IMG/VR virus record: IMGVR_UViG_3300010370_000261 | Coordinates: 1-22,853 of that record | Reading direction: 5' to 3' (one strand) | Length of the DNA stretch: 22,853 nt | DNA from: a virus | In this document: in pieces, positions 1-22,853 of the stretch | How the letters are laid out: each line of letters begins with the position of its first letter | How positions within the stretch are numbered: position 1 is the first letter of the stretch | The notes under the pieces: generated by a model | What the model was told of the DNA's origin: nothing | The model's input: only the letters and a program-made list of their open reading frames with translations | Databases searched by the model: none | Position numbers and translations under genes: made by a program

Positions 1-249
1 AGCACAATAGCACGTCAATGGTTAGAAACAACACAAAAAGCAAAGAACCCAATTACAGGAATTGAAGAAATTTTAACCCAAGAAGATTTAGGAACTTTAG
101 CAATGGTTAAGAAAATGCGAGAGGGTGATGTTTCAGCTTATAAAGAGTTAATGAACTCAGCATACGGTGCGCCATTACAACAAATAGAACAAACAATTTT
201 AGAACAGCCATTATTTCCTGATGTTTCAGAGAACGACAGCAACGAATAA
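1..249 (+). CDS. Terminase small subunit-like protein, 3' part only
   Basis: An open frame enters from the left edge in frame 1 and stops with TAA at 247-249, giving the last 82 residues of a protein. It is charged and mostly helical, with a GDVSAYKELMNSAYGAP segment and an acidic end (FPDVSENDSNE). Its stop lies 29 bases inside the start of the terminase large subunit. That position and overlap are typical of the small terminase subunit, which recognises packaging DNA and delivers it to the large subunit. The DNA-binding part would be upstream of the window. The family assignment rests mainly on position and general character, because no diagnostic motif is present in this fragment. Confidence 0.7.
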   Translation, partial: STIARQWLETTQKAKNPITGIEEILTQEDLGTLAMVKKMREGDVSAYKELMNSAYGAPLQQIEQTILEQPLFPDVSENDSNE

Positions 250-1381
250 AGTACTTGCATTAAAAAGACGAACTAAAATAATACAAGGGGGTACGGCAGC
301 TTCAAAAACGTATTCTATTTTAGCAGTATTAATAAACAAAGCAATACAACAGCCTAATTTAGAAATAAGCGTAGTAGCTGAGTCAATACCACACTTAAGA
401 CGTGGAGCATTAAAAGACTTTATTAAAATACTTAAATGGACTAATCGTTTTAACGATGAGCAGTTCAATAAATCTTTATTAACCTATAACTTTAAAAATG
501 GAAGTGTTTTTGAATTTTTTAGTGCGGATGATAGTAGTAAGTTACGTGGTGCTCGCCGTGATATTCTTTATATTAACGAATGCAATAATGTTACCTTTGA
601 ATCTTATAATGAACTTTCTATACGGACTAAAAAAGAAGTATTTTTAGACTTTAACCCTGCTAATGAGTTTTGGGTGCATACGGAACTAAAAGACGAACCC
701 GATGCAGACTTTATAATACTTACTTACAAGGATAACGAAGCCTTAGATAACTCAATAGTTGAACAAATAGAAAAGAACCGCTTAAAAGCAGAAACAAGCG
801 CATATTGGGGTAATTGGTGGAGAGTTTATGGGTTAGGTGAAATAGGAATGTTAGAAGGCGTAATATTTAGTAACTGGAAGCAGATTGATACAATACCAAA
901 AGAAGCAAAGTTAATAGGGATCGGGTTAGACTTTGGTTATACAAACGACCCAACAGCAGCAGTTGAAATTTACAATTATAACGGAACACGAATCTTAAAC
1001 GAATTAGTTTATCGTACAGGAATGTTAAACTCAGACATAGCTAAAACACTTCCTAATAATTGTCCGATATATGCTGATAGTTCCGAACCTAAATCAATAG
1101 ACGAAATAAGACGCTACGGAAAGACGATTAAAGGAGTTACAAAAGGCAAGGACTCAATTAACTACGGAATTGATGTTATGCAAAGCCAAGAATATTTAGT
1201 TACGTCAAACAGCGTTAATTTAATCAAAGAACTTCGGGCTTATTGCTGGGATGTTGATAAACAAGGCACACGATTAAACAAACCTATTGACACAAATAAC
1301 CACGCTATTGATGCTTTACGTTATCACGAAATGGAAACATTAGGATTAAAGCGCAATTACGGAACATATAATATACGTTAA
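221..1381 (+). CDS. terL: Terminase large subunit (packaging ATPase and nuclease)
   Basis: This 386-residue protein has the full terminase layout. A Walker A motif GGTAASKT lies at residues 23-30. A Walker B-like stretch ILYINEC lies at 115-121, with E120 as the probable catalytic carboxylate. A coupling motif-like FNPANEFW follows near 144. The C-terminal RNase H-fold nuclease shows its acidic residues in GIGLDFGY (D237), YADSSEP (D286) and NHAIDALRY (D364). The protein docks on the portal, pumps DNA into the prohead and cuts concatemers. It resembles the PBSX/Terminase_3 type. The ATG at 221 overlaps the preceding gene by 29 bases, and the stop overlaps the next start (TAATG). The portal gene is not next to it but about 12 kb downstream, which is unusual. 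Confidence 0.96.
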   Translation: MFQRTTATNKVLALKRRTKIIQGGTAASKTYSILAVLINKAIQQPNLEISVVAESIPHLRRGALKDFIKILKWTNRFNDEQFNKSLLTYNFKNGSVFEFFSADDSSKLRGARRDILYINECNNVTFESYNELSIRTKKEVFLDFNPANEFWVHTELKDEPDADFIILTYKDNEALDNSIVEQIEKNRLKAETSAYWGNWWRVYGLGEIGMLEGVIFSNWKQIDTIPKEAKLIGIGLDFGYTNDPTAAVEIYNYNGTRILNELVYRTGMLNSDIAKTLPNNCPIYADSSEPKSIDEIRRYGKTIKGVTKGKDSINYGIDVMQSQEYLVTSNSVNLIKELRAYCWDVDKQGTRLNKPIDTNNHAIDALRYHEMETLGLKRNYGTYNIR

Positions 1382-1560
1382 TGACAGATGATACAGCGGT
1401 AATGACCCAAGAAGTTGAGAACTATGTGTATATTAGAACGGGTAAGCGTGTAAAGATAGTTTTTAACGACTCAATGAATTTAAGAAAGCATTTAATATTA
1501 CTTGGCGAAGCGTATGCAGTTGCCGTGTACTACAATAAACAAAATAAAACGTTTAAATAA
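1381..1560 (+). CDS. Small conserved-looking protein, 59 aa
   Basis: This short gene starts at the A of the terminase stop (TAATG overlap) and ends with TAA one base before the next gene's ATG at 1562. This tight coupling on both sides is the main reason to call it. The product contains YVYIRTGKRVKIVFNDSMNLRKHLILLGEAYAVAVYY, a pattern of alternating hydrophobic residues that suggests a small alpha/beta fold. There is no signal peptide or membrane segment. I do not recognise the family. The context suggests a minor structural or assembly role, but no function can be assigned. Confidence 0.6.
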   Translation: MTDDTAVMTQEVENYVYIRTGKRVKIVFNDSMNLRKHLILLGEAYAVAVYYNKQNKTFK

Positions 1561-1561
1561 T

Positions 1562-2305
1562 ATGAAGTTAGAATTAATCGTTCCAACAAAACTTAGTGAG
1601 ATACCTTTAAAGCATTACCAGAAGTTTTTAGGTATTGCCAAAAACACGAACGACGAAGTTTTTTTAGCTGAGAAAATGATACAATGTTTTTGCGGTATCG
1701 AACTAAAAGAAGTAGTTAAAATTCAGTTTAAAGAAATAGAAGCATTAAGCCACCATTTTGCAGCGATGTTCAAACAAAAGCCTGAATTTAAAAACAGGTT
1801 TAAGATTGCAGGAGTTGAATTTGGGTTTATTCCTAACTTAGAAACTATGACTTGGGGAGAATATATAGACCTCGAGGCCAATATAAGCGATATAGAGACG
1901 TTTCACAAGGCAATGGCTGTTATGTATCGCCCTATCGTAGAAAAACACGGAGACAAGTATAAAATAGAACCTTACGAAAGTGCTGCTAATTATTCTGAAA
2001 TAATGGAAAACGTTAGTTTAGATATAGCATTAGGAGCAAAGGTTTTTTTTTACAATTTAGAGAACGAGTTATTAGGGGCTACTCTGTCTTATTTGGAGAC
2101 GGAGATAATGAAGGAGAAGGAGATAGCAACGACTTTAGCGAAAGAGCTCAATTTAGCAAACAATGGGGCTGGTATCAAAGCATATATGCAGCAGCTAAAG
2201 GAGACGTCACAAAGTTTGAAGAAGTTACCCGACTTCAGCTTACAACAGCACTTACCTTCCTTACTTTCGAAAAGCAAAAAATCGAAATTGAGCAACGTGA
2301 ATTAA
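1562..2305 (+). CDS. Tail assembly chaperone-like protein, 0-frame product
   Basis: The 247-residue 0-frame product starts at ATG 1562 (MKLELIVPTKLSEIPLKHYQKFL), directly after the preceding stop. A longer reading from TTG at 1502 would overlap the preceding gene by about 60 bases and is less likely. The middle part (FGFIPNLETMTWGEYIDLE, FHKAMAVMYRPIVEKHGDKYKIEPYE) is of a type I associate with Bacteroidetes phage structural operons. After a run of nine T (2043-2051) the frame continues for 84 residues. This tail is rich in Lys, Ser and Leu, and I suspect that it is the less constrained of two overlapping frames. The -1 frame has its own well-formed sequence and ends on the next gene's start, so the gene probably makes two products, as G/GT chaperones do. 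The position, well upstream of the tape-measure gene, is not classical. Confidence 0.75.
   Translation: MKLELIVPTKLSEIPLKHYQKFLGIAKNTNDEVFLAEKMIQCFCGIELKEVVKIQFKEIEALSHHFAAMFKQKPEFKNRFKIAGVEFGFIPNLETMTWGEYIDLEANISDIETFHKAMAVMYRPIVEKHGDKYKIEPYESAANYSEIMENVSLDIALGAKVFFYNLENELLGATLSYLETEIMKEKEIATTLAKELNLANNGAGIKAYMQQLKETSQSLKKLPDFSLQQHLPSLLSKSKKSKLSNVN
2043..2104 (+). promoter_or_regulatory. Candidate frameshift site: T9 slippery run and downstream hairpin
   Basis: Nine T (2043-2051) are read in the 0-frame as GTT TTT TTT TAC. The heptamer T TTT TTT (2044-2050) allows both tRNAs to re-pair one base back, after which reading continues TTA CAA. Downstream, 2082-2089 (CTCTGTCT) pairs with 2097-2104 (AGACGGAG) in an 8-bp stem with one G-U pair and a 7-base loop. 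The spacing from the slip site to the stem is about 31 bases, longer than the usual 5-9, so the stem may not be the stimulator. RNA-polymerase slippage on the T run is an alternative mechanism. Confidence 0.6.
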
Positions 2306-2331
2306 ACAGACAATTTAAAAAAGGACTATGA
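2050..2331 (+). CDS. -1 frame extension of the chaperone-like gene (frameshift product)
   Basis: In the -1 frame the sequence is open from 2017 to a TGA at 2329-2331, with no start codon of its own that fits. It reads QWGWYQSIYAAAKGDVTKF, then EEVTRLQLTTALTFLTFE, then a charged helix KQKIEIEQRELNRQFKKGL. This looks like a compact helical domain of the kind seen at the end of G-T tail chaperones. The stop overlaps the ATG of the next gene as ATGA (2328-2331), the coupling used throughout this operon, which supports this frame as the translated one. Slipping back one base on the T run would fuse residues 1-163 to 93 further residues, 256 in all. An alternative is a homopolymer error: ten Ts instead of nine would make one continuous gene. 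Confidence 0.7.
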   Translation, partial: LQFRERVIRGYSVLFGDGDNEGEGDSNDFSERAQFSKQWGWYQSIYAAAKGDVTKFEEVTRLQLTTALTFLTFEKQKIEIEQRELNRQFKKGL

Positions 2332-2786
2332 GTTATTACGGAATATTAAACATAATTAAGGCGGAGTTAGAAGACACGCAATTAGTGAACACGGTAACGC
2401 AAGGAGATATATTTAGAATCGACTTAGCTAAACAGACTATATTTCCTTTGGCTCATATCATTGTAAATAATGCAACGTTTGAAAGCAATGTTATTCGTTA
2501 TAACATATCGATTATTGCTATGGATGTTGTAGATATATCAAAAGACGAAACAACGGACATTTTTATAGGCAACGATAACGAGCAGGACGTATTAAACACT
2601 CAGATAACAATGTTAAATCGTGTTTACGATAGATTAACTCGTGGTGATTACTTTACTAATTTAGGAATCATTGACGGCAACCCAACTTGTGAACCATTTA
2701 TAGAAAGGTTTGAAAATAACTTAGCAGGGTGGACGATGACATTTGATTATTTGATAGGCAACGAAATGACTGTTTGTGATGGATAG
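2328..2786 (+). CDS. Putative tail-completion or neck protein, 152 aa
   Basis: This 152-residue protein has an alpha-helical start (MSYYGILNIIKAELEDTQLVNTVTQGD), a beta-rich middle (FPLAHIIVNNATFESNVIRYNISIIAMDVVD) and a C-terminal segment FENNLAGWTMTFDYLIGNEMTVCDG. An N-terminal helix followed by strands reporting on a measured quantity is the layout of small tail-terminator or neck proteins, and in this position such a role is plausible. The identification comes from context and shape, not from a signature motif. The start overlaps the frameshift stop as ATGA, and the end overlaps the next gene by eight bases. Confidence 0.6.
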   Translation: MSYYGILNIIKAELEDTQLVNTVTQGDIFRIDLAKQTIFPLAHIIVNNATFESNVIRYNISIIAMDVVDISKDETTDIFIGNDNEQDVLNTQITMLNRVYDRLTRGDYFTNLGIIDGNPTCEPFIERFENNLAGWTMTFDYLIGNEMTVCDG

Positions 2787-3348
2787 ACAAAAAGTTTTAG
2801 ACCGATTTATTAAGCACGTTGTTAGTCAAGCTAAAAAGAATTTAACGACTACAAATAAAAACGCATCCAAAAAATTATACAACTCAATTAAGGGCGAAGC
2901 AAAAGCATTTCCGAACTCAATAGGTATTTATTTCGATATGGAAGAATATGGGTTCTTTCAAGACCAAGGAGTTAGGGGGGCAAACCCAAGTAAAGTTTCA
3001 AAAAATGCAAGAATACGAGTACAGCAAGCACCAAACAGCCGTTTTAAATTTGGCTCAGGAAGTAGCAGCGGAACGTGGAGTACTTTTGTTAGGGGAATTG
3101 AAAAATGGGCAAAAAGACGGAATATAAGATTACGAGATGAAGCAGGAAAATTTAAAAAAGGAAATTATAAAACAATAGCCCAAATAATAGCAAGTAATAT
3201 TTATGCACGAGGGTTAGAGCCTACATTCTTTTTTACCAAACCATTTGAAGCAGCTTTTAAAAACCTACCTGATGACTTAATAGAAAGTTATGGGTTTGAG
3301 GTTGAAGATTTATTTAATGACATAATGAACCAAACATTTAAAAAATGA
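2779..3348 (+). CDS. HK97 gp10-like head-tail joining or neck protein
   Basis: The 189-residue product is basic and contains YGFFQDQGVRGANPS at about residues 54-68, followed by a Ser/Gly-rich loop (FKFGSGSSSGTWS). Next come WAKRRNIRLRDEAGKFKKGNY and the C-terminal RGLEPTFFFTKPFEAAFKNLP. The EYGFFQDQGVRG element and the 'IA..I...GLEPTFFF.KPFE' ending are typical of HK97 gp10-like minor proteins that join head and tail. I chose ATG 2779 over GTG 2776, which lies one codon upstream in the same frame. The gene overlaps its predecessor by eight bases and ends in an ATGA overlap with the next start at 3345. Confidence 0.8.
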   Translation: MDRQKVLDRFIKHVVSQAKKNLTTTNKNASKKLYNSIKGEAKAFPNSIGIYFDMEEYGFFQDQGVRGANPSKVSKNARIRVQQAPNSRFKFGSGSSSGTWSTFVRGIEKWAKRRNIRLRDEAGKFKKGNYKTIAQIIASNIYARGLEPTFFFTKPFEAAFKNLPDDLIESYGFEVEDLFNDIMNQTFKK

Positions 3349-4430
3349 TATTTGCACGAAACCCATATATTGTAACGATTGACGAACTTGCTCAAGAAAG
3401 CACCCGATTAGAATTGTTTTTATGGAACGGAACAGGCTCAGCACCTGCAGCTCCTACTTATTCACTTAGTAAAAAAATTCCAAGTTCAAATCAAACAGAA
3501 ACTTTTTATAATATCGCTCCTTTCATTCGTGAGTTTTTTGACTTTTCGCAATCAAACTCAGATGTTACGGGTACTGATGACTTAACAAATGATTATGCGT
3601 ATTGTAATGTAGAATATAAAACTTATTACACTTTAAACGGGGTAGAAAGTTTAATAGCTACTTATACAGACAAAGCGTTTGACGGCTTCGGTTATTATGA
3701 AGACGGTTATAATTATTCAGGGCAACAAATTTTATTAACTGATTTAAGTAATTATGGCGGTTCAAATATTTACTATTACCCTTGTGATGTTGACCCCGAA
3801 GGCTTTACAATAGTAACAGGCTCAGCAAGTTTAAATAACTATTGGAGCGTAGTTTATACGAATTTAGAAACTGGAAGCACGCAAGGTTTTAATATCCCAG
3901 TTGACTCAGTAGTTAATGTTATTAAAGTTTGGGCAAGTTGGTTAAGTCAAGGAAATAAAGTAGAAATATTAGACGCAGACGAAAATATAGTAGGAACTTA
4001 TTATTTTGTTCCTCAATGCGAATGTAAATATGAAGTAGTTACTATTGATTTTGTAAACCGATGGGGTGCTTGGCAACGTGAGTTCTTTTTTAAGGCTTCG
4101 ACTGAAAATGTTGAAATGGAAAACAATAAATACAAATTAAACCCTTTAGTGTTTCCTGATTATAATCTTCGACAAGGTCAATACAAAAACTTTAACACGA
4201 ACGCAAAAAGAATTATAAAAGTTAACACGGGTTGGGTTAATGAAAACTATAAACAAGTAATTGAAGAACTTTTATTAAGTGAAACAATTAGAGTTGGATA
4301 TTCAAATCGTCCCTTCCCTGCAGTTTTAAAAACTAAATCGATTGAGAAGTTTAAATCTATAAACACGAAAACAATTAATTATCAAATGGAATTTGAGTTA
4401 GCTTACGATATTATTAATTCAATTAGTTAA
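3345..4430 (+). CDS. Tail-tip or distal-tail-like structural protein, 361 aa
   Basis: This 361-residue, beta-rich protein starts at an ATGA overlap. Its first part (FARNPYIVTIDELAQESTRLELFLWNGTG, then FYNIAPFIREFFDF) has alternating hydrophobic residues as in stacked beta sheets. A Cys pair (PQCECKYEVVTIDFVNRWGAWQREFFFKAS) sits at about 225-250. The C-terminal segment (ELLLSETIRVGYSNRPFPAVLKTKSIEKF) fits a tail-tip domain. Proteins of this type regularly pair with the next, larger tail protein in Bacteroidetes phages and have been left as hypothetical or minor tail. A distal-tail role at the end of the tube is an inference from position between neck genes and a hub-like protein. There is no signal peptide. 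Confidence 0.65.
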   Translation: MIFARNPYIVTIDELAQESTRLELFLWNGTGSAPAAPTYSLSKKIPSSNQTETFYNIAPFIREFFDFSQSNSDVTGTDDLTNDYAYCNVEYKTYYTLNGVESLIATYTDKAFDGFGYYEDGYNYSGQQILLTDLSNYGGSNIYYYPCDVDPEGFTIVTGSASLNNYWSVVYTNLETGSTQGFNIPVDSVVNVIKVWASWLSQGNKVEILDADENIVGTYYFVPQCECKYEVVTIDFVNRWGAWQREFFFKASTENVEMENNKYKLNPLVFPDYNLRQGQYKNFNTNAKRIIKVNTGWVNENYKQVIEELLLSETIRVGYSNRPFPAVLKTKSIEKFKSINTKTINYQMEFELAYDIINSIS

Positions 4431-7132
4431 TGAGAACGGTACAAATATACATAGGAAGACAAGTAACGGATATTGATTGCATTCGTGTAACTTTTACAGT
4501 TGACGGGCAGTCGCAAACTGTTGACGTTCCAAGAATTGATTTTTTAAACGGCAGACCCGAGTATGAATATAACGCAGGGTTAACAGAAGGAGATTACATT
4601 GTAACGGAAGACGGAGACTACATAACAACGGAAGACGGCGATTATTTAATAACTGAACAATCTTATTTTACTCCTTCAATTTATATTTATTGGGACGGTA
4701 CTCAATGGGTAATAGAAATTACAATAAACGGAGTTACTTATACTTATTTTTCTTCAAGTGATGTTTACTACCCTTATTTAACTGATTGGGAAGTTTTCGG
4801 GGAAAGCGCAGAACTTGAATATTTAGTTACGGCACCTTGTACCGATTTACAATATGAACGACTTGAATTATTTGACGATGAAAAAATAAACATAACATTA
4901 AACGTTCAAAACCTCAGCGATATTTCAAAAACATTTACTGATTTCAGTCAAAGTTTCACCGTGCCGGGAAGCATAGTTAATAACAGAATATTCGAACATT
5001 TTTATCAAAACGATGTTGACGGAACTTTAGACCATAATTTAAAAAGACCTGCTTACATTGAAATAGATTTTATTCCGTTTAGAACTGGAGTTATATCGCT
5101 CGAAAAGGCGAATATGAAGAACGGGTTAATAGACAACTACTCAATAACTTTTTATGGGCAGTTGACAAGCCTTAAAGATATATTCGGAGAAACAAAGATT
5201 AATCAATTAGATTTAAGTTCCTTAGCATTTACTTATACAGGTTCAAACGTATACGACAGAATAACGGACACGGCTACCGATTATGATGTTAGATTTCCTT
5301 TAATTGCAAATAGCAGATTATGGACTTATGCAGACGGAACGGCTAACGATATTACTACTATTATTGGTGGTTTAAATTATGGGGAGTTATTTCCAGCGGT
5401 TAAAGTTGCACGTTTGTTTGATGCAATACAAAACGACTTTGATTTAAATTTTGTAGGTGACTTTTTTACTGATGAACGTTTTACTAAATTATTTTTAGAA
5501 GCAAAGAACGCTCAATTAATGAGTTTTGTAACTCAAGTTTCTAACGTAACATTTGACACGGTTTCAACGACAACGGTTCCTGAAAATAATTACAACCCAC
5601 AAAATTACGTTGATATTCCAAATAGCACTATTACAATTAATTCAAGTGATGCGCTTAACTCACAAATATTTCAAATAAATTTAAATTTAGTAGTAAATAC
5701 TAAGTCAAGTGCTGAAACGGCTTATTTAGATGTATATAAAAACGGAACTTTCTTTTCAACTATTAATATTACAACTGTTGGAACTTACCCTATATTAGTT
5801 TACGGCGGTATTTTGTCAACAAACATAGTTCCGATTCCTAACAATAACGAAACGTTTAGCTTTAAGTTAAAATCTAATTTCGTTATGACTATTGATATGG
5901 ATATTACTTATTCAGCAAGTTTCTTTAACCCTGTTGACATATTTGGAAGTTATATAAACACTTCAACCATAAACACGAATTTAAACGTTTTAACGGCAAA
6001 TTTAGATATTCGTAATTATTTACCTGATATGAAGATAACAGACTTCTTTACAGGAATAATGCGGCAATTTAATATGACTTGCGTAGGTTTAGCAGAACGA
6101 CAATTTCAAGTGTTACCTTTGGAAGATTGGTACAATAACGGAGCAACTATTGATGTAACAAAATACACGGATGCTGAAACGGCAGACATAGGCAGAGTTC
6201 CTTTATTTAGAAATATTAATTTTAGGTATCAAAAAAGCGAATCATTCGCAAATAGAAATTATTTTGCTATTTCTAACTCAGAGTATGGAGATACAGACAA
6301 CGTTTATAACTATGACGGCGGAGATTATAAAATAGAAAGCCCGTTTGAAAATTTATTGTTTGTTGAGGCCGTAGGAACTATAACAACGAACACGGCTATT
6401 TTAGGTTATTTTTTAAATCAAAACTACCAAAGCTATATACCTAAACCAACTTTGCTTTATTTGTACGGAAACACGGGAACACTACCAGTTAATATAAAGT
6501 TTTACAACGGAACAACAAACGTAAATATAACTAACTATACTTTGTTCGGTCAAGATGTTGTAGCAGGGGGTAACAACTTTTCTTTAAACTTTGGCGCTGA
6601 CAATTCAATAATTACTAAAAACACGGAACAAAACGGCTTATTTGCTACTTATTATTTTAATTATCTATCAAATTTATATAACCTAAAACAAAGATTGACA
6701 ACGATTAAAGCGATGTTACCTTTAAGCATAATCACGAACCTTCAATTAAACGATAGGTTAATTATTCGTGACAAGCGTTATATTATTAATGACATAAAAT
6801 TAGAGTTAACAAGCGGAGAAGCTACATTAACACTTTACAATGACTTTAGAGATATTAATTTAGGAAACATTGACTTAGTAGATAATGGATTAAATTTTGT
6901 TAGCCTACGAGTTCCGTATAGAGAAGGCAATCAAAGTGCTGTAATAACAAGTGACCCAGTAACTTTAGGTATTATTGTACCTAATCAAACGTGGGCAGTT
7001 GGAAACGTAGACACAAAACAAGTAACGTTAGTAGTTCCAGTAAATACAACGGGCTTAGATAGACAATGGATAGTGACGGTTACTTATGTAAATGGAACGA
7101 CTCAAACATTAACAGTAATACAATCAGCATAA
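4430..7132 (+). CDS. Large tail protein, baseplate hub or tip-like, with C-terminal Ig-like domain
   Basis: The 900-residue product is the largest in the window. Residues 1-110 include three tandem repeats with core DYIVTEDG (55-78), separated by no linker. A conserved-looking region follows (NISKTFTDFSQSFTVPGS-like at about 165-182), then long beta-rich stretches. A hub-like section MKITDFFTGIMRQFNMTC near 535-552 is followed by LPLEDWYNNG. The last ~65 residues (VPNQTWAVGNV ... WIVTVTYVNGTTQTLTVIQ) look like an Ig-like or BACON-type beta sandwich, a fold often used for carbohydrate binding. The gene lies between the distal-tail-like protein and the tape measure, which suits a hub or tip role. 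The stop overlaps the next ATG (TAATG at 7130-7134). Confidence 0.7.
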   Translation: MRTVQIYIGRQVTDIDCIRVTFTVDGQSQTVDVPRIDFLNGRPEYEYNAGLTEGDYIVTEDGDYITTEDGDYLITEQSYFTPSIYIYWDGTQWVIEITINGVTYTYFSSSDVYYPYLTDWEVFGESAELEYLVTAPCTDLQYERLELFDDEKINITLNVQNLSDISKTFTDFSQSFTVPGSIVNNRIFEHFYQNDVDGTLDHNLKRPAYIEIDFIPFRTGVISLEKANMKNGLIDNYSITFYGQLTSLKDIFGETKINQLDLSSLAFTYTGSNVYDRITDTATDYDVRFPLIANSRLWTYADGTANDITTIIGGLNYGELFPAVKVARLFDAIQNDFDLNFVGDFFTDERFTKLFLEAKNAQLMSFVTQVSNVTFDTVSTTTVPENNYNPQNYVDIPNSTITINSSDALNSQIFQINLNLVVNTKSSAETAYLDVYKNGTFFSTINITTVGTYPILVYGGILSTNIVPIPNNNETFSFKLKSNFVMTIDMDITYSASFFNPVDIFGSYINTSTINTNLNVLTANLDIRNYLPDMKITDFFTGIMRQFNMTCVGLAERQFQVLPLEDWYNNGATIDVTKYTDAETADIGRVPLFRNINFRYQKSESFANRNYFAISNSEYGDTDNVYNYDGGDYKIESPFENLLFVEAVGTITTNTAILGYFLNQNYQSYIPKPTLLYLYGNTGTLPVNIKFYNGTTNVNITNYTLFGQDVVAGGNNFSLNFGADNSIITKNTEQNGLFATYYFNYLSNLYNLKQRLTTIKAMLPLSIITNLQLNDRLIIRDKRYIINDIKLELTSGEATLTLYNDFRDINLGNIDLVDNGLNFVSLRVPYREGNQSAVITSDPVTLGIIVPNQTWAVGNVDTKQVTLVVPVNTTGLDRQWIVTVTYVNGTTQTLTVIQSA
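4592..4663 (+). repeat. Three tandem 24-bp repeats inside the large tail gene
   Basis: Units at 4592-4615, 4616-4639 and 4640-4663 encode DYIVTEDG, DYITTEDG and DYLITEQS. The first two differ at few bases. The third is more diverged at both DNA and protein level, which suggests ageing of an internal duplication. The unit is acidic and beta-compatible. Confidence 0.85.
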
Positions 7133-11129: not shown

Positions 11130-12065
11130 ATGGCAACAACAACATCAATTACAACTACTTATGCTGGCGAGTTCGCAGGTAAGTATATTGCGGCGGCACT
11201 TTTAAGCTGTCCAACATTAGAAAAAGGCGGAATTACTATTATGCCTAACGTTAAGTACAAGCAAGTTATTAAAAGAGTAGCTACTGACTCAATTATTAAA
11301 AACGGAACTTGTGACTTTGACCCAACTTCAACTGTAACACTTACTGAAAGAATTTTACAGCCTGAAACATTCCAAGTTAACCTACAACTTTGTAAAACTG
11401 ACTTCCGTTCAGATTGGGACGCTATCCAAATGGGTTACTCTGCGTTTGACGTATTGCCAAAATCATTTGCTGATTTCTTAATAGCACACGCTGCTGAGAA
11501 AGTTGCTCAACAAATGGAATTAGTTATCTGGGATGGTAACAACGCTTCTGCTGGTGAGTTCTCAGGAATTATGAGACAATTAGACGTTGACGCTTCATTG
11601 CCTGCAGGTCAAAAAATCGCAGGTACAACTGTTGACGCTACTAACGTAGTTACTGAATTAGGTTTAATCATTGACGCTTTACCTGCTGCATTGTACGGAA
11701 AAGAAGATTTGAAACTTTATGTATCTTCAAACATTTATCGTGCTTACGTTCGTGCATTGGGTGGTTTTGCTGCTAACGGAGTAGGTGCTAATGGTTACGA
11801 TAACAAAGGAACTAACCAAACTTTAAACGACCTTTATTTTGACGGTGTTAAAGTATTCTTAGCTCCAGGTCTTGCAAATAACACGGCTTTATTAACTCAA
11901 ACTTCTAACTTGTTCTTTGCGACAGGTCTGATGAATGATATGAATGAATGCCGAGTTTTGGATATGGGTGATTTGGACGGTTCACAAAATGTTCGTGTAG
12001 TTATGCGATTTACCGCAGACGCTAAGTATGGTTTTGCTTCTGACTGCGTTACTTACGGTATCTAA
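11130..12065 (+). CDS. Major capsid protein
   Basis: The 311-residue protein follows the scaffold-like gene and is followed by a strong terminator. Its N-terminus (MATTTSITTTYAGEFAGKYIAAALLSCPTLEKGGITIMPNV) and core (QPETFQVNLQLCKTDFRSDWDAIQMGYSAFDVLP, then HAAEKVAQQMELVIWDGN) are of a type I recognise as major capsid proteins in Bacteroidetes phages, probably HK97-fold. The region LKLYVSSNIYRAYVRALGG near 192-210 fits the A-domain strand-helix pattern. Codon use is visibly cleaner than in neighbours (more GGT, AAC, GCT and CGT), which suits a highly expressed gene. The leader before ATG is A-rich (TTTTACAAAAATGG). The fold is inferred from family memory and position, not from a motif. Confidence 0.88.
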   Translation: MATTTSITTTYAGEFAGKYIAAALLSCPTLEKGGITIMPNVKYKQVIKRVATDSIIKNGTCDFDPTSTVTLTERILQPETFQVNLQLCKTDFRSDWDAIQMGYSAFDVLPKSFADFLIAHAAEKVAQQMELVIWDGNNASAGEFSGIMRQLDVDASLPAGQKIAGTTVDATNVVTELGLIIDALPAALYGKEDLKLYVSSNIYRAYVRALGGFAANGVGANGYDNKGTNQTLNDLYFDGVKVFLAPGLANNTALLTQTSNLFFATGLMNDMNECRVLDMGDLDGSQNVRVVMRFTADAKYGFASDCVTYGI

Positions 12066-16929: not shown

Positions 16930-16937
16930 AATAAAAA

Positions 16938-17174
16938 ATGGCAACTTATAAATTTCCGCAATTCAACGTTACAATCACTAACCCTGTTGTAACAGTTACA
17001 ATAGTAACAGATGATATTATTAATAGAGTATGTAGTGCAAACGTTTTGCTAACTACACCTTCTGCAATCTTTGGGATAGATTTTTACGGATATTCTTATA
17101 CGCAAGATTGGAGCGACCAAGATATTATTGACTGGGTTAATAACGTGGAACTTCCAAAATACGAAGTACAATGA
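16938..17174 (+). CDS. Small structural protein of unknown function, 78 aa
   Basis: This 78-residue protein (MATYKFPQFNVTITNPVVTVTIVTDDIINRVCSANVLLTTPSAIFGIDFYGYSYTQDWSDQDIIDWVNNVELPKYEVQ) has a beta-rich first half and an acidic, aromatic second half. It lies eight bases after the receptor-binding candidate and overlaps the holin-like gene as ATGA. A fibre accessory or chaperone role is possible from position, but I see no motif to support it. Confidence 0.6.
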   Translation: MATYKFPQFNVTITNPVVTVTIVTDDIINRVCSANVLLTTPSAIFGIDFYGYSYTQDWSDQDIIDWVNNVELPKYEVQ

Positions 17175-17383
17175 TTGACGTAAGCAAAGTTATAGAAATA
17201 ATCAAAAAGCAGGGAGCAACGGGAGTTTTGGCGATGTGGTTATGGTATACTCATTCCGATGTTCAAGATTTAAAACATCGTTTATATGATTGTTATGGGA
17301 AAAATAATAACACGGCTTCGAAGCCAATTAATGACACTACTCATTTTGCTGTTTTACCGAAAGATGAATTGAACGAAGAATGA
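17171..17383 (+). CDS. Holin-like small membrane protein
   Basis: This 70-residue protein has a short amphipathic start (MIDVSKVIEIIKKQGATG) and one hydrophobic segment (GVLAMWLWY) of only about 13-16 residues. The C-terminal half is polar (SDVQDLKHRLYDCYGKNNN...). It lies directly before the endolysin (ATGA overlap at 17380). This layout of one membrane segment plus a polar tail in front of a lysin is common in Bacteroidetes phage lysis cassettes. Such proteins are called holins by position. The short segment makes insertion as a full transmembrane helix less certain. It could alternatively be a lysis regulator. Confidence 0.55.
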   Translation: MIDVSKVIEIIKKQGATGVLAMWLWYTHSDVQDLKHRLYDCYGKNNNTASKPINDTTHFAVLPKDELNEE

Positions 17384-17898
17384 ATTACGATTGGTTAAAA
17401 GAAGAAAAAGCACCCCGTGTTTTAGTTCAAGCTGTTAAACAACTTGGGGTAACCGAGATTGTAGGCAAAGAACACAATCCTGTTATATTAGGTTGGGCTA
17501 AAGAACTTAAATTAGCAAGTGTTTATAATTCAGACGAGATTCCGTGGTGTGGTTTGTTTATAGCTTATTGCTGTAAAATGGCAGGTCTTGACGTAGTAGA
17601 TAAACCATTATGGGCGTTATCGTGGAGTAATTGGGGTAATGCTGTAAGCGAACCAATGTTAGGCGATATACTAACGTTTAGACGAAACGGAGGAGGACAC
17701 GTTGGAATTTATGTTGGCGAAGACGTGACACATTTTCACGTTTTAGGCGGAAATCAAGGTAACGCAGTTAGTGTTTCTCGTATTGCAAAGAGTAGATTAT
17801 ATAAAGCAAGGCGGACAGCTTGGAAGGTTGCACAACCTACGAATGTTCGAAAAGTAAAATTAGAAGCAAAAGGAGTAATAACAACAAACGAAGCATAA
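17380..17898 (+). CDS. Endolysin, CHAP/NlpC-P60-like cysteine peptidase
   Basis: The 172-residue product has the features of the papain-like TIGR02594-type lysin family. PWCGLFIAYCCKMAGL contains the probable nucleophile Cys57 and LWALSWSNWGN follows. GDILTFRRNGGGHVGIYVGED has the probable catalytic His107, and VLGGNQGNAVSV supplies the usual third polar residue (Asn125). These enzymes cut peptide bonds in peptidoglycan, which releases progeny. There is no signal peptide, so export would depend on a holin, consistent with the holin-like gene just before it. The C-terminal ~25 residues are basic and may help cell-wall binding. The stop overlaps the start of the next small gene (TAATG). Confidence 0.9.
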   Translation: MNYDWLKEEKAPRVLVQAVKQLGVTEIVGKEHNPVILGWAKELKLASVYNSDEIPWCGLFIAYCCKMAGLDVVDKPLWALSWSNWGNAVSEPMLGDILTFRRNGGGHVGIYVGEDVTHFHVLGGNQGNAVSVSRIAKSRLYKARRTAWKVAQPTNVRKVKLEAKGVITTNEA

Positions 17899-18119
17899 TG
17901 GCAAAGAAAAATTTAAACGTAAATGTTGACACGGAAAATATAGATGTTAATGTTGAACGTAAAGACGGAGATTTAAAAGTTAACTACGATTCTAAAAAAC
18001 TTGATGTACAAGTTAATAAAACCGCTGACAACGTTGAGGTGAAAGTCGACGCACAAGGCGGTTTATTAAAACTGGTTGGCAAAGTATTAAAAAAAGTTTT
18101 GCTGAGAAGATTAAAATAG
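17898..18119 (+). CDS. Small lysis-cassette protein with cationic amphipathic C-terminus
   Basis: The start at ATG 17898 overlaps the endolysin stop; a longer frame from 17820 would overlap it by 79 bases and is not likely. The 73-residue product has two parts. Residues 1-52 are polar with repeated V/N/D-rich beta-like units (LNVNVDTENIDVNVERKDGD and NKTADNVEVKVD). Residues 54-73 are GGLLKLVGKVLKKVLLRRLK: seven basic residues, no acidic ones, with Leu/Val spaced as in an amphipathic helix. This is the profile of a membrane-active peptide. Being last in the lysis cassette it may help disrupt the outer membrane, as the cationic peptide proposed for the phiKT phage does in place of spanins. No spanin pair is visible in this window. 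This function is an inference. Confidence 0.65.
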   Translation: MAKKNLNVNVDTENIDVNVERKDGDLKVNYDSKKLDVQVNKTADNVEVKVDAQGGLLKLVGKVLKKVLLRRLK

Positions 18120-18127
18120 TATATTTG
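18098..18127 (+). promoter_or_regulatory. Bacteroidetes-type promoter P1
   Basis: TATATTTG (18120-18127) fits the -7 box TAnnTTTG of Bacteroidetes sigma factors. TTTG (18098-18101) lies 18 bases upstream as the -33 box. It starts inside the last codons of the lysis cassette gene. Transcription would begin near 18134 and would meet the terminator at 18166 after about 60 bases. Confidence 0.65.
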
Positions 18128-18133
18128 CACTAT

Positions 18134-18192
18134 TCTTCATAATTGATAGGTTAATTGTTAACGAGAAACCCTTACTTCGGTAGGGGTTTTTT
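18134..18192 (+). ncRNA. Possible short RNA between promoter P1 and its terminator
   Basis: Only about 59 bases separate the likely start of transcription from P1 and the end of the terminator's T run. They contain a perfect 13-base inverted repeat with a three-base centre (GTTAATTGTTAAC, 18150-18162), the weak pair CTAT/ATAG around it, and the terminator stem. No reading frame is present. A short stable RNA is one reading. The inverted repeat could instead be an operator for a repressor, and the terminator may simply end late transcription. Confidence 0.4.
18166..18192 (+). terminator. Intrinsic terminator with UUCG tetraloop
   Basis: AAACCCTTAC (18166-18175) pairs with GTAGGGGTTT (18180-18189) in ten pairs, one of them G-U, closed by a C(UUCG)G tetraloop, followed by six T (18187-18192). 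It lies 47 bases after the last lysis gene and separates late from early transcription. Confidence 0.92.
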
Positions 18193-18245
18193 AGTTTATA
18201 GAAAAAATATTTGTTAAAAATGTAACATTATATTTAAAAGTATAG

Positions 18246-18253
18246 TATATTTG
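18246..18253 (+). promoter_or_regulatory. Bacteroidetes-type promoter P2 (-7 box), start of the early operon
   Basis: TATATTTG at 18246-18253 is a perfect TAnnTTTG box located 25 bases before the ATG at 18278. No clear TTTG -33 box lies at the usual distance; the nearest lies at 18210-18213, 32 bases upstream. The bases around it (AAAAGTATAGTATATTTG) resemble P1. It probably starts transcription of the small early genes with a short A/T-rich leader. Confidence 0.6.
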
Positions 18254-18277
18254 TACCAAACAATTAATATTTAAGTT

Positions 18278-18424
18278 ATGAAAAATTACTTTTTAGACTT
18301 GTTAGACCAAGTCACACCTGCGAATGAAGAACACAAAGAGTTTTTAAGGGTCATTTCGTTCGGTTTAACGCTGTTTATCGGCACGTTTGGTATGTTACTA
18401 TCACTTTTTATTTTAATACGATGA
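18278..18424 (+). CDS. Small tail-anchored membrane protein, 48 aa
   Basis: This is the first gene after promoter P2. The frame ATG 18278 to TGA 18422-18424 encodes 48 residues. The first half is polar (MKNYFLDLLDQVTPANEEHKEFLR). The second half is one strongly hydrophobic helix of about 20 residues (VISFGLTLFIGTFGMLLSLFILI) ending in a single Arg. This suggests a protein anchored in the inner membrane by its C-terminus with its N-terminus in the cytoplasm. The stop overlaps the next start as ATGA, supporting translation. Early small membrane proteins in phages often interfere with host membranes or exclude other phages; this role is only a suggestion here. Confidence 0.7.
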   Translation: MKNYFLDLLDQVTPANEEHKEFLRVISFGLTLFIGTFGMLLSLFILIR

Positions 18425-18603
18425 GAAAGCCTAAAAAAGCGTCCCCGACTTTGATTGAAATAATTGATTATTGGTTGGAGCAAAAGAAGAATAATACGGG
18501 AAGGATGGATATTCAACATTATATGAAGGTTTGCCACGCAAAAGCACGAACGTTAAGATGGAATGAGAACGATAAAACTTGGAGTTATGTGGGTAAAAAA
18601 TAG
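18421..18603 (+). CDS. Small basic early protein, 60 aa
   Basis: The gene starts at the ATGA overlap with the membrane-protein gene. The 60-residue product (MRKPKKASPTLIEIIDYWLEQKKNNTGRMDIQHYMKVCHAKARTLRWNENDKTWSYVGKK) is basic and helical with aromatic residues, and could bind nucleic acid, but no defined motif is visible. It overlaps the next gene. Function unknown. Confidence 0.6.
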   Translation: MRKPKKASPTLIEIIDYWLEQKKNNTGRMDIQHYMKVCHAKARTLRWNENDKTWSYVGKK

Positions 18604-18976
18604 AGATGGTTATACTTTGTTGCTAAGTAATGACCCTTGTGAAGTATTTTATTATTTTAATATAAAAGAAATGCACGGGTTAAACATAACGGATTGTAGG
18701 TTGCATCAAAACACGAAACAAAGTAGTTATATTGCAGGGTGGTGTAATTTCATTCCTAAAGTAAATAATCAGTATGGTGAAAAGGATAAGCGATTCGTGT
18801 TTATTAACTTGTCACAATGTACGGATGAGGTTAAAACAACGGGTTTAATTATGCACGAACTTTGTCATCAGTCGTTATTCAGGTTTAATTACGATATGGA
18901 AAAAGAAGAAGAAATAATTACTTGGGCAGAAAATGAAACCTACGAAATTTATGAATACGTTAAAACATTGATATGA
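18587..18976 (+). CDS. Small zinc metallopeptidase-like protein (HExxH)
   Basis: The 129-residue product contains LIMHELCHQSLFRF, an HExxH zinc-binding motif at residues 90-94 (H90, E91, H94). It sits after a strand (RFVFINLSQC) and helix (EVKTTGLIMHELCHQS) in the usual metzincin-like layout. A candidate third ligand lies in the following acidic helix (EKEEEIITWAENETYEI, around E107-E115). Starting at ATG 18587 gives 129 residues with a 17-base overlap; ATG 18563 would add eight residues and a larger overlap. The size and HELCH motif resemble ImmA/IrrE- or SprT-like phage and host peptidases. It may cut a host or phage regulator early in infection, but the substrate is unknown. It ends in an ATGA overlap with the next gene. 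Confidence 0.7.
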   Translation: MWVKNRDGYTLLLSNDPCEVFYYFNIKEMHGLNITDCRLHQNTKQSSYIAGWCNFIPKVNNQYGEKDKRFVFINLSQCTDEVKTTGLIMHELCHQSLFRFNYDMEKEEEIITWAENETYEIYEYVKTLI

Positions 18977-19179
18977 AATACAGGTGGATTAGAAAAATAA
19001 CTCAAACGTATAAGGGTAGAACTTATTTAAGTTATGCGGTAAGTATTAACGACAAGCATCTTTATAGTTCGTCCGTGTTAGAGTATTGCGAAGAATACGT
19101 TTTGAAGTACGCACAAAAACACGGAATCAAAGAAGAAGATATATTAAGAAATGGAAAACATAAAAGAATTAAATTATGA
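18973..19179 (+). CDS. Small early protein, 68 aa
   Basis: The product (MKYRWIRKITQTYKGRTYLSYAVSINDKHLYSSSVLEYCEEYVLKYAQKHGIKEEDILRNGKHKRIKL) starts with a basic strand-like part and continues as a charged helix. ATGA overlaps on both sides (18973-18976 and 19176-19179) support it as a translated gene in the early operon. There is no recognisable domain. Confidence 0.65.
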   Translation: MKYRWIRKITQTYKGRTYLSYAVSINDKHLYSSSVLEYCEEYVLKYAQKHGIKEEDILRNGKHKRIKL

Positions 19180-19391
19180 AAACAAAAGAAGTTACAGCGG
19201 TATTCGAATGGACGAATAAAGCTATTTTGTTGCAGCAACTGGATAGGTTAAAAGAATTAATTTTACAAGGTAAAGAATATCACGAGGACGTTTATAATCA
19301 AGTTAGTTTACAATTTATGCAGAAATACGAACGAACTCGGGGTTTTAAGATAGTAAGTGAAAATGAAGTAATAGTAAAATCTAAAGTATGA
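19176..19391 (+). CDS. Small early protein, 71 aa
   Basis: The 71-residue product (MKTKEVTAVFEWTNKAILLQQLDRLKELILQGKEYHEDVYNQVSLQFMQKYERTRGFKIVSENEVIVKSKV) is helical in its middle and basic near the end. It is joined to both neighbours by ATGA overlaps. Function unknown. Confidence 0.65.
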   Translation: MKTKEVTAVFEWTNKAILLQQLDRLKELILQGKEYHEDVYNQVSLQFMQKYERTRGFKIVSENEVIVKSKV

Positions 19392-19624
19392 CACCAAAAG
19401 AAAAAGCATTTGAATTATTTACAAAATTTGCAGACATTGAACATTTAGGTGTTTATGGGGATTATAACGGAACTTGGGAATGGAGTTCGTCTTTATGGAG
19501 AAAACAAGCTAAAGAAAGTGCTATAATTGCAGTAGATGAAATTATTAGTTCTAATAAAATATATAATCATAATTATTCTAATATATTTTGGAACGAAGTT
19601 AAACACGAAATAGAAAACCTATGA
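19388..19624 (+). CDS. Small early protein, MTPKE family copy 1, 78 aa
   Basis: The product begins MTPKEKAFELFTKFADI and contains AKESAIIAVDEIISSNK and WNEVKHEIENL near its end. The pattern 'MTPKE.A.EL..KF ... CA..A...I ... E....LE.L' is familiar from small proteins repeated in Flavobacteriia phage early regions. The following gene shares this start and end, so the two look like a tandem duplication. The role is unknown. Confidence 0.7.
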   Translation: MTPKEKAFELFTKFADIEHLGVYGDYNGTWEWSSSLWRKQAKESAIIAVDEIISSNKIYNHNYSNIFWNEVKHEIENL

Positions 19625-19803
19625 CACCTAAAGAATTTGCAATAGAATTAATAGACAAGTTTTACATAGGTCTTGAAATAAAAGACTACCGGGTAGCAAG
19701 AAATTGCGCTATATTTACTTGTCACCAAAGAATACAGGAAACAACTACGTTAACACGAATTAAATTTTTAAAAGAAGCAGTAACCCAATTAGAAAAGCTA
19801 TGA
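19621..19803 (+). CDS. Small early protein, MTPKE family copy 2, 60 aa
   Basis: This 60-residue product (MTPKEFAIELIDKFYIGLEIKDYRVARNCAIFTCHQRIQETTTLTRIKFLKEAVTQLEKL) shares the MTPKExAxELxxKF start, a central 'CAI' segment and the 'E...QLE.L' end with its neighbour, but is shorter. The ATGA overlaps on both sides support translation. It probably arose by duplication and divergence from the preceding gene or from a common source. Confidence 0.7.
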   Translation: MTPKEFAIELIDKFYIGLEIKDYRVARNCAIFTCHQRIQETTTLTRIKFLKEAVTQLEKL

Positions 19804-19889
19804 GAAATTATTTAGGATGCGCCGTTTACTTTTTTTTAGGTGGTTTATTTTGGTACATTGTTATTCACTTTATAATTAAGTTTTGGTGA
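19800..19889 (+). CDS. Very small membrane peptide, 29 aa
   Basis: The frame ATG 19800 to TGA 19887-19889 encodes 29 residues (MRNYLGCAVYFFLGGLFWYIVIHFIIKFW), almost all of which form one hydrophobic helix. It is coupled by ATGA to the gene before it and by an ATG at 19889 to the gene after it. This coupling is the main support for a real gene at this size. The product would insert in the inner membrane. Function unknown. Confidence 0.55.
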   Translation: MRNYLGCAVYFFLGGLFWYIVIHFIIKFW

Positions 19890-20005
19890 TGAGAGTTCTT
19901 GGATTATGGGATGGAAAGCAAAAGATTGACTATCGAAAGTTAAGGCGATGGAAGGTAAAAGTTAACATATCGAATAATTTTTATAAGAATTTTGAAGAAG
20001 ATTAA
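19889..20005 (+). CDS. Small basic protein, 38 aa
   Basis: The frame starts on the last base of the preceding stop and gives 38 residues (MRVLGLWDGKQKIDYRKLRRWKVKVNISNNFYKNFEED), with a basic centre and acidic end. Promoter P3 overlaps its 3' end. It is the last gene of the small-gene cluster. Function unknown. Confidence 0.5.
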   Translation: MRVLGLWDGKQKIDYRKLRRWKVKVNISNNFYKNFEED

Positions 20006-20024
20006 AAAATAGTTCGTATATTTG
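19991..20024 (+). promoter_or_regulatory. Bacteroidetes-type promoter P3
   Basis: TTTG (19991-19994) and TATATTTG (20017-20024) are separated by 22 bases, within the spacing reported for Flavobacterium -33/-7 boxes. The sequence TTAAAAAATAGTTCGTATATTTG resembles P1 and other Flavobacteriia promoters. Transcription would start near 20030, exactly at the first hairpin of the element downstream. Confidence 0.7.
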
Positions 20025-20029
20025 TAAAA

Positions 20030-20109
20030 CCTGTGCAGAGGTAAATTAAGGAAATTATTATAAACTCTTTAGTTAGTAGGCTGCACCCGAACGCTAAAGG
20101 GTTTTTTTT
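20030..20109 (+). ncRNA. Structured leader or small RNA with a possible kissing loop
   Basis: The RNA from P3 could form hairpin 1, ACCT (20029-20032) with AGGT (20039-20042), whose six-base loop is GTGCAG (20033-20038). Hairpin 2 is the terminator, whose loop contains CTGCAC (20081-20086), fully complementary to the first loop. No coding frame is present. It is either a free RNA of about 80 bases or an attenuator in front of the replication genes that start at 20153. Confidence 0.55.
20062..20109 (+). terminator. Intrinsic terminator of the structured leader
   Basis: AAACTCTTTAG (20062-20072) pairs with CTAAAGGGTTT (20094-20104) in eleven pairs with one G-U, around a 21-base loop. Eight T follow or overlap the stem (20102-20109). 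The loop is much longer than usual. Confidence 0.85.
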
Positions 20110-20152
20110 ATGACTAAAGTTTACTTGTTTTCTGAAAACATTTATAATCAAA

Positions 20153-20365
20153 ATGGTACAATTAGTTTTTTATGGTTCGGTAAAGTCTGAAACAACCGAA
20201 CACGAGTTGCGATGTTTTTGTAATACTCATCACGAAATTTATGTTGGAATTGAAATGCATCAGGGAATTGAGCATTTTATTTGCTTAGATAAAGCTACAG
20301 CAATAAAATTTAGCAAAGAATTACGTAAACAAATAGCACTTATAGAAGATGAGAAAGGGGTTTAA
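20153..20365 (+). CDS. Small conserved-looking protein before the replication genes, 70 aa
   Basis: The 70-residue product (MVQLVFYGSVKSETTEHELRCFCNTHHEIYVGIEMHQGIEHFICLDKATAIKFSKELRKQIALIEDEKGV) starts with a strand, has an NTHHEIYVGIEM element and ends with a charged helix. The segment FICLDKATAIKFSKELRKQI is one I have seen in small proteins of Flavobacteriia phages next to replication genes. It overlaps the next gene by 17 bases. No function is known to me. Confidence 0.65.
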   Translation: MVQLVFYGSVKSETTEHELRCFCNTHHEIYVGIEMHQGIEHFICLDKATAIKFSKELRKQIALIEDEKGV

Positions 20366-20963
20366 ATTTTATCGCAGTTATTATGATGTAGCTTCGGAAC
20401 TAAACGACAAAGATAGGTTAGCTTTTTACGATGCGCTATTAAAAAGACAATTTACAGGAGTGGAAGTTGAATTAACGGGGTTAGCAAAGTTTGCTTATAT
20501 TAGCCAAAAGCATTCAATAGACGCACAAGTTAAAGGTTATGAAGATAAAACAAACACCCCTTTAATAGACCCTGCACAAGGGGGTGCGCAAGGGGGTATT
20601 GAAGCCCCTTCGGTACAAGAGAAAGAGAAAGAGAAAGAGAAAGAACAACTTGTTATAGTTCCTTTTCAGGAACGTGTAAATAGTTTTTTGAATTGGTTTA
20701 ACTCAGAATTTACAAAACACGAAAAACAACAAGGTAAATTTAGAACCCTAAACAATCAAACTGAAAGTAACCTAAAAAAACTTTTGGATAAATATTCTTC
20801 TGAAGAATGGAGTTATGCATTTTTTAATATGATTCAAAATGAATGGGTAATAGAAAGTAAGAATGCAACACCCGACCATTTTTTAAGACCTGCTAACTTT
20901 GAGAAATATTTAAACCAACCTAAACAACAAGAAGAAAAATTTAACCTACCCCATTTACGATGA
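20349..20963 (+). CDS. Replisome organizer or helicase-loader-like protein
   Basis: The 204-residue product begins MRKGFKFYRSYYDVASELNDKDRLAFYDALLKRQFTGVEVELTGLAKFAY, the DUF6291-like module found at the start of phage replication proteins. A linker of low complexity follows (QGGAQGG, then EKEKEKEKE, about residues 77-98). The C-terminal part (QERVNSFLNWFNSEFTKHEKQQGKF ... EWVIESKNATPDHFLRPANFEKYLN) resembles the ending of phage replication initiators and helicase loaders. The domain order suggests origin binding by the N-terminal part and contact with the helicase encoded next by the C-terminal part, with which it overlaps as ATGA. The linker is a simple-repeat region. Confidence 0.7.
   Translation: MRKGFKFYRSYYDVASELNDKDRLAFYDALLKRQFTGVEVELTGLAKFAYISQKHSIDAQVKGYEDKTNTPLIDPAQGGAQGGIEAPSVQEKEKEKEKEQLVIVPFQERVNSFLNWFNSEFTKHEKQQGKFRTLNNQTESNLKKLLDKYSSEEWSYAFFNMIQNEWVIESKNATPDHFLRPANFEKYLNQPKQQEEKFNLPHLR
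20573..20642 (+). repeat. Direct and simple repeats inside the replication gene
   Basis: Two neighbouring 12-base units, TGCACAAGGGGG (20573-20584) and TGCGCAAGGGGG (20585-20596), differ at one base. CCCCTTCGG follows and can pair with the G runs. Four copies of GAGAAA (20619-20642) encode EKEKEKEKE. Phage origins often lie inside initiator genes, so this may be an origin. It may also be only a flexible linker. Confidence 0.6.
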
Positions 20964-22015
20964 ACGGATTTAAAATAACTGAACAAGGCGATATTGTAGA
21001 TAAGATTTACAAGCACCGTGATAACTACCATAAAAAAGGAATGTTTTTAGGTTGGGAACAATTACACAAACATTACTCGATGACCTTAGGTAATTGCACC
21101 GATTGGACGGGTTACCCAATGAGCGGTAAAACTCAAGTTCTTATGGAGTTACTTGTAAACACTTCTAAATTTTACGGATGGAAGCATTTAGTTTATTTTC
21201 CTGATGTAGGTAATAACGTTGAAATCGTAGCAGATTTAATCCATAAAAAGACGGGCAAAAGTTTTAATCCTAATTCAGAAAACGTAATAACGGATATTGA
21301 AATAACGCACGCTATGGAATGGGTATTTAGACACTTTCATATCGTTACACGAAGCGAAACAAAAGGGAAATTAAGTCCGCAGGATTTTTGGGAATGGGCT
21401 GTTAAATTAAAAAACACGGACGAAGGATTGCACACAGCTTCCATTGATAGTTGGAAGGATATGAGCCACGATTACGAAAAACACGGAGGATATGCACAAT
21501 ATTTGGAGTATATTTTACCATTAAGAAATCATATTGCGGAACAAAACGATTTGCATTTACACACAATTATTCATCCTAAGTTAACTGAAAAGGAAAACGG
21601 CAAAAGACCCGCTCCAAGTCCTTACGATTTAAAAGGTGGTAGTGAATGGTTTAACTCGGGTAAATCAATGATAACCGTGCATCGTGAAAATATTTTAAGC
21701 AATGAAGTTATAATTTACTTTAACAAAATTAAACCCCGTTCAATAGGTGAAGTCGGAAGCATTAAAATGTATTTTGACAAAGACCGATTAACTTACTATT
21801 TTCAGGATGCAGAAAACAACAATTACACGAAATATTACGCAAGTGAACAGCGCAGCCCGTTACAATCTGTAACCAACTCAAATAGCTTCCCAACTAAACT
21901 ACAATTAAACGAACCCGATATAGTTAACGGAAAAGAATTACTTTCGTTTAGCGAAAAGATGAAACAAAGTAACTTACCAAAGAGTAACTTACCAAATAGT
22001 GATGTTCCTTTTTGA
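20960..22015 (+). CDS. DnaB/RecA-like replicative helicase-type ATPase
   Basis: The 351-residue protein carries a Walker A motif GYPMSGKT at residues 51-58, a Walker B-like SIDSWKDM (about 161-168, D163) and HTIIHPK at about 201-207. A conserved-looking KGGSEWFNSGKSMITVHRE follows at about 225-243. This matches the RecA-fold core of SF4 helicases (DnaB, gp4, Twinkle). No N-terminal primase or DnaG-binding part is present, so a separate primase is likely elsewhere. The C-terminus is disordered, with SNLPKSNLPNSDVPF, ending like the tip of single-strand binding proteins. It overlaps the replisome-organizer-like gene as ATGA. The 28-base gap after the stop shows no signal. Confidence 0.75.
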   Translation: MNGFKITEQGDIVDKIYKHRDNYHKKGMFLGWEQLHKHYSMTLGNCTDWTGYPMSGKTQVLMELLVNTSKFYGWKHLVYFPDVGNNVEIVADLIHKKTGKSFNPNSENVITDIEITHAMEWVFRHFHIVTRSETKGKLSPQDFWEWAVKLKNTDEGLHTASIDSWKDMSHDYEKHGGYAQYLEYILPLRNHIAEQNDLHLHTIIHPKLTEKENGKRPAPSPYDLKGGSEWFNSGKSMITVHRENILSNEVIIYFNKIKPRSIGEVGSIKMYFDKDRLTYYFQDAENNNYTKYYASEQRSPLQSVTNSNSFPTKLQLNEPDIVNGKELLSFSEKMKQSNLPKSNLPNSDVPF

Positions 22016-22043
22016 TTATTATAACAAGCAAAAACACGAATAA

Positions 22044-22337
22044 ATGGACGAACTGACAATTATAAAAGGCAAAGTGTTATTAGACACTACTTATTTAAAG
22101 ATTAAAATAAGCCTTGAAGAAATCAAACAAAAACACGAACACAGAAACGATTTAATTAACTCAATGGAACGTACTTTAGCAGACTTACAAGAAGTAAAGA
22201 TTAGTTACGATGCTATGGAAAAAGAACTAAGAGCAGCAGTTCAATCGTGTTTTCGTTTAGAGCGATTGCTTCAGGAAGAAAAATTTAAAATAAAGGATTT
22301 AGAAATGCAATTAAAAACCAAAAATTATGAAATATAA
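22044..22337 (+). CDS. Coiled-coil protein, 97 aa
   Basis: The 97-residue product (MDELTIIKGKVLLDTTYLKIKISLEEIKQKHEHRNDLINSMERTLADLQEVKISYDAMEKELRAAVQSCFRLERLLQEEKFKIKDLEMQLKTKNYEI) is one long charged coiled coil with an 'L..L...L' pattern in its second half. There is no other feature. Its end overlaps the methyltransferase start by 11 bases. It may be a structural partner in replication or regulation, but the sequence gives no function. Confidence 0.65.
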   Translation: MDELTIIKGKVLLDTTYLKIKISLEEIKQKHEHRNDLINSMERTLADLQEVKISYDAMEKELRAAVQSCFRLERLLQEEKFKIKDLEMQLKTKNYEI

Positions 22338-22853
22338 AATATTAAATTTATACGCTTGTTTAGGTGGCAATCGTTACAAATGGGATGAGGTTGCTGATAA
22401 TTTAGAAATAACAGCTGTTGAACTTGACCCTGAAGCAGCACGTTTATACCAAGAGCGTTTTCCAAATGACAAAGTAATAGTTGCAGACGCACACCAATAT
22501 TTACTTGACCATTACAAAGAGTTCGATTTTATTTGGAGTTCACCGCCTTGCCCTACTCATTCACGAGCAAGGTATGCAAGAAGAAATACTACAACACCTG
22601 TTTATCCTGATTTAAAATTATATGAAGAGATTTTATTTTTAGCAAATTATTTTGAAGGTAAATATTGTGTTGAAAATGTTATTCCGTATTATGAGCCTTT
22701 AATACACGCACAAAAACGTGGAAGGCATTTATATTGGACTAATTTTATTTTACCTAATGATTTAAATGAACGTAAATCTTCAATTAAGGAAGGTAAAGAT
22801 GAGGTAAATAAATGGTGTGACTTTCACAATTACGATTTTAGGAAATATAAAGG
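22327..22853 (+). CDS. DNA cytosine-5 methyltransferase, 5' part (runs off the end)
   Basis: The frame begins at ATG 22327 and is open to the end of the window (175 residues plus two bases). It has motif IV PPCPTHS (P73, P74, C75; C75 is the probable nucleophile) and motif VI CVENV (E116, N117, V118). The motif II-like ELDPEAA is also present. Motif I is divergent: NLYACLGGNRYKW instead of the usual DLFAGIGG, with the GG retained. Target-recognition and C-terminal motifs lie outside the window, so its site cannot be read. It may protect phage DNA from host restriction or replace a host pattern. It overlaps the coiled-coil gene by 11 bases and is probably in the same replication transcript. 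Confidence 0.85.
   Translation, partial: MKYKILNLYACLGGNRYKWDEVADNLEITAVELDPEAARLYQERFPNDKVIVADAHQYLLDHYKEFDFIWSSPPCPTHSRARYARRNTTTPVYPDLKLYEEILFLANYFEGKYCVENVIPYYEPLIHAQKRGRHLYWTNFILPNDLNERKSSIKEGKDEVNKWCDFHNYDFRKYK

Follow-up and report, generated by a model that had tools for sequence, protein, structure and literature searches.

The stretch of DNA analysed here in full, which we call the window, is a 22,853-base IMG/VR virus record of 34% G+C and a fragment of the genome of an uncultured tailed dsDNA phage, in which at least six 4-bp palindromes (CTAG, CATG, GATC, CGCG, CCGG, and GGCC) and some 6-bp ones are depleted. Very probably, this depletion is explained by classical avoidance of type II restriction sites, with several specificities involved over time. 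By this mechanism, unmethylated incoming phage DNA carrying a site would be cut, which would select against the site, and the lineage would purge orthodox type II recognition sequences by single, often synonymous, substitutions. In view of the number of avoided words, no fewer than six 4-bp palindromes plus some of 6 bp, the selective agents would be several restriction specificities encountered over time, and not two.

The plus strand of the window carries the gene of the terminase large subunit (221..1381; PF04466 and PF17288), which was the query for relatives and for the tree, a gene for a putative major capsid protein (11130..12065), also used as a query for relatives, and a C5-cytosine DNA methyltransferase gene truncated by the contig end (22327..22851; PF00145); a portal and a tape measure protein are encoded in the window as well. 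The product of 11130..12065, putatively named, is probably the major capsid protein; it weakly matches a virion structural family, and in the isolate collection it matched only Nonlabens phages, with 30% identity. Given that the terminase is 52% identical to that of phages of Flavobacterium psychrophilum and that the capsid match is to Nonlabens phages, the host is likely Flavobacteriia-like, as judged from sequence similarity. The phage belongs to a large aquatic family, probably a flavobacterial one.

An exact recount agreed with the initial annotation in finding no CATG and a single GATC (919..922) in the window. That tens of each would be expected by chance was also borne out, with expectations, derived from trinucleotide counts (Markov), of 32.5 for CATG (z -6.6) and 28.4 for GATC (z -5.9). 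The further claim that the loss was specific to these two sites, which low Markov scores for them alone would have supported, did not hold, since CTAG (0 vs. 44.3 expected, z -7.8) shows the strongest depletion among all 256 tetramers, and CGCG (0 vs. 16.5), CCGG (3 vs. 19.7), GGCC (3 vs. 14.8), and some 6-mers are depleted too; GTAC, which served there as an example of an unaffected palindrome, also falls somewhat below expectation (36 vs. 56). When both strands are counted, the six depleted 4-bp palindromes rank below all other tetramers (observed/expected, O/E, 0.00–0.18), with the seventh lowest at 0.54, and the near-zero words are palindromes only. All six are of the type II enzyme kind, and enzymes for them are BfaI and MjaI (CTAG), NlaIII (CATG), DpnII and Sau3AI (GATC), FnuDII (CGCG), HpaII (CCGG), and HaeIII (GGCC).

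As a second null, synonymous codons were permuted over 34 ORFs in 300 draws, keeping the proteins and the codon usage. The depletion persisted for CATG (0 vs. a mean of 39.9, with a minimum of 25 in the draws), GATC (1 vs. 30.9, minimum 18), and CTAG (0 vs. 30.8, minimum 20); the signal was milder for CGCG (0 vs. 11.6) and CCGG (3 vs. 12.3) and weak for GGCC (3 vs. 8.0). The sole GATC lies in the terminase gene, in the codons GGG ATC (Gly-Ile), where a synonymous change could remove it. Among the 6-bp palindromes, AAGCTT (0 vs. 10.0 expected, minimum 3), CAATTG (1 vs. 10.2), and CATATG (0 vs. 5.6) are low in the window, and several stand at 0.4–0.6 of expectation in 106 relatives pooled; in Flavobacteriales DNA, 6-bp palindromes are mostly at 0.7–1.0. 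Separately, ACNGT occurs in the window at about half of its synonymous-permutation count (38 vs. 72.5, with a minimum of 59 in 200 draws), unlike ACGT, which is normal, and the non-palindromic CTTA/TAAG is low (199 vs. 300, both strands).

It may be objected that these tetramers could be lost through an A+T-rich composition, a mutational bias, or codon usage, with no selection by restriction, given that numerous palindromes fall a little short of the Markov expectation in the window and that CATG, GATC, and CTAG are modestly reduced in every Flavobacteriales sample. However, the synonymous and Markov nulls predict 25–45 copies, and close relatives of equal G+C do carry the sites: L013, whose capsid protein is 95.7% identical to that of the window, has 25 CATG of 34 expected, L007 has 19 GATC of 20 expected, and in L022 both are near normal. 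We therefore regard compositional bias as a very improbable cause. The 20 pieces of host-side DNA (from Flavobacteriales, plus one Sphingobacterium), in samples of up to 20 kb, gave pooled O/E values of 0.70 for GATC, 0.70 for CATG, and 0.73 for CTAG, and thus the depletion of the phage is not a general trait of such DNA. Equal depletion in host DNA, which the initial annotation had set against a restriction effect, was not seen in the pooled samples, although individual genomes do show such a loss.

The depletion is also specific to lineages. A search of IMG/VR with the terminase, the capsid, and the methyltransferase yielded 233 deduplicated virus contigs, 4 cultured phages among them, in which elimination was scored as an O/E under 0.15 in contigs with at least 8 expected copies. 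By this measure, CTAG was eliminated in 71% of the scored contigs, GGCC in 49%, CCGG in 45%, GATC in 40%, CATG in 34%, and CGCG in 25%, and the remaining ten of the sixteen 4-bp palindromes were eliminated in 0–1%. In a tree built from the terminases of 51 contigs, the minimum number of changes in absence was 7 for CATG, 6 for GATC, and 3 for CTAG. We tentatively suggest the possibility that the eliminated set, which is almost confined to six of the sixteen palindromes, shifts fast among close relatives and may record the recent hosts of these lineages and their restriction systems. One methyltransferase-bearing contig, L186, shows an odd set of its own (AGCT 2/54, CGCG 1/72, GATC 1/79, and GGCC 110/108).

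These contigs also bear on the proposal of the initial annotation that two host systems, for GATC and CATG, were involved. Both sites are missing together in 14 of the 27 scored contigs, which speaks for the proposal, but the two losses are also found separately, with CATG at 0/49 (observed/expected) and GATC at 31/44 in L290, and GATC at 0/32 and CATG at 43/60 in L237. The number of independent tree pairs, only 6, was too few to assess a linkage between the two losses. The avoidance of CTAG, absent from the window, of CGCG, CCGG, and GGCC, and of some 6-mers leaves an explanation by two systems with hardly any likelihood.

Somewhat less improbable is a different origin for CTAG alone: mismatch repair or DNA structure could have removed it, while restriction accounted for the rest. 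Many bacterial genomes contain few CTAG sites, and CTAG is missing in most of this phage family, being absent in 42 of the 51 tree rows, an absence that could have an ancient or a non-restriction cause. Nevertheless, some close relatives have kept it, namely L005 (10 of 17 expected), which adjoins the window in the tree, L066 (19 of 31), and L237 (51 of 58), and the frequency of CTAG in Flavobacteriales DNA is only slightly reduced, so that we consider a separate loss of CTAG unlikely.

How the sites were lost can be read from aligned coding sequence of 21 relatives (84 kb), in a comparison that is descriptive, given that the relatives are not independent. The window kept 0 of the 76 CATG sites and 0 of the 54 GATC sites of its relatives, and 465 of 1542 (30%) of the spared palindromes (GCGC, GTAC, TGCA, AGCT, ACGT, and TCGA). 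One-step differences prevail at the homologous sites: 69 of the 76 CATG sites are one base away in the window, and at 57 CATG sites the amino acids are unchanged, a pattern that fits site loss via single, mostly synonymous substitutions. With relatives differing site by site and Flavobacteriales DNA not generally depleted, restriction avoidance, which the initial annotation had already put forward as the cause, is the best explanation.

The methyltransferases of the family were considered as well. The C5 enzyme of the window matches only the N-terminal part of the PF00145 profile (2.4e-8), and its full-length relative, of 217 aa, matches known C5 enzymes only N-terminally. Contigs with relatives of this enzyme avoid the same palindromes as the other contigs, and no palindrome stands out as spared only in the 69 contigs with it when compared with the whole set. 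A 214 aa N6/N4 DNA methyltransferase is encoded in L013 (2319-2963) by a gene absent from the window fragment, and enzymes of this type, of 214–220 aa, occur in the records of L013, L144, and L143, all three of which keep CATG; as a protector of CATG it was nonetheless rejected, given that among the 75 contigs with relatives of the gene CATG is missing in 35% of those scored. The phage Dam-type family PF05869 had no matches in 50 records.

The phage might, alternatively, encode a nuclease of matching sequence specificity with which it breaks down the DNA of its host, its own genome avoiding the targets. Nuclease genes are common in phages, and the window is only a genome fragment, whose missing part may hold such a gene; against this, the window proteins that were searched revealed none, six different targets would take several enzymes, and the losses are patchy across relatives, all of which makes a phage nuclease a most unlikely agent.

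Turning back to restriction by the host, selection of this kind, a Flavobacteriia-like host, and the identity of the acting enzymes are what we infer from these data. Families known for GATC, CATG, and CTAG enzymes are present in some Flavobacteriales genomes, which supports avoidance, while their rarity, at 1 to 8 of 296 genomes each, counts against it: MutH/Sau3AI-type proteins were found in 8, ICEA in 2, MjaI in 1–2, and DpnII in 1–2. The ICEA, Sau3AI, DpnII, and MjaI families have known members that act on CATG, GATC, GATC, and CTAG, respectively, and the proteins matched here are candidates for these specificities. The genome G074 encodes a full-length ICEA-family (NlaIII-like) protein (L364:249-2203) adjoining a C5 methyltransferase gene, and has 17 CATG of 189 expected and 6 GATC of 140; it is also low in GCGC. 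Among the carriers of Sau3AI-type proteins, GATC is low in G085 (9/68) and G099 (13/47) and normal in G342 (92/90), and thus carriage alone is no predictor of avoidance in the host genome. Another Flavobacteriales genome, G060 (L338, L360, and L366), has GATC at 1/166 and GCGC at 4/78 in 60 kb, and a search of it for PF04556 and PF02976 gave no match. G171 (L346 and L365) was rejected as a candidate host carrying an enzyme for GATC, its protein being closer to BanI than to DpnII.

Restriction-site avoidance is, of course, already known, and the window is a new and well-resolved example of it. Among nearly 4000 viral genomes surveyed earlier, (almost) complete site elimination was found in about a tenth and was linked to recognition sites of the orthodox type II class (Rusinov et al. 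2018, PMC6286503). Like the dsDNA phages surveyed there, the window has its short palindromic type II sites almost entirely eliminated; unlike in that survey, many sites are avoided at once, and the turnover can be traced through close uncultured relatives. Two Flavobacterium phages share part of the profile of the window, FPSV-S2 (MK764443) avoiding CATG (2/131) and CGCG (0/62), and hattifnatt9-1 (MN812207) avoiding GATC (1/62), CTAG (2/77), and CGCG (0/25), but their terminases are 52% or 28% identical to that of the window, and each avoids a different subset. A literature search on Flavobacterium phages with GATC, CATG, and methylation found no paper.

In summary, the window offers a clear-cut instance of restriction avoidance within a family of uncultured phages, whose many close relatives let the gain and loss of single sites be traced, and such avoidance profiles could help to match uncultured phages to hosts with the corresponding restriction systems.
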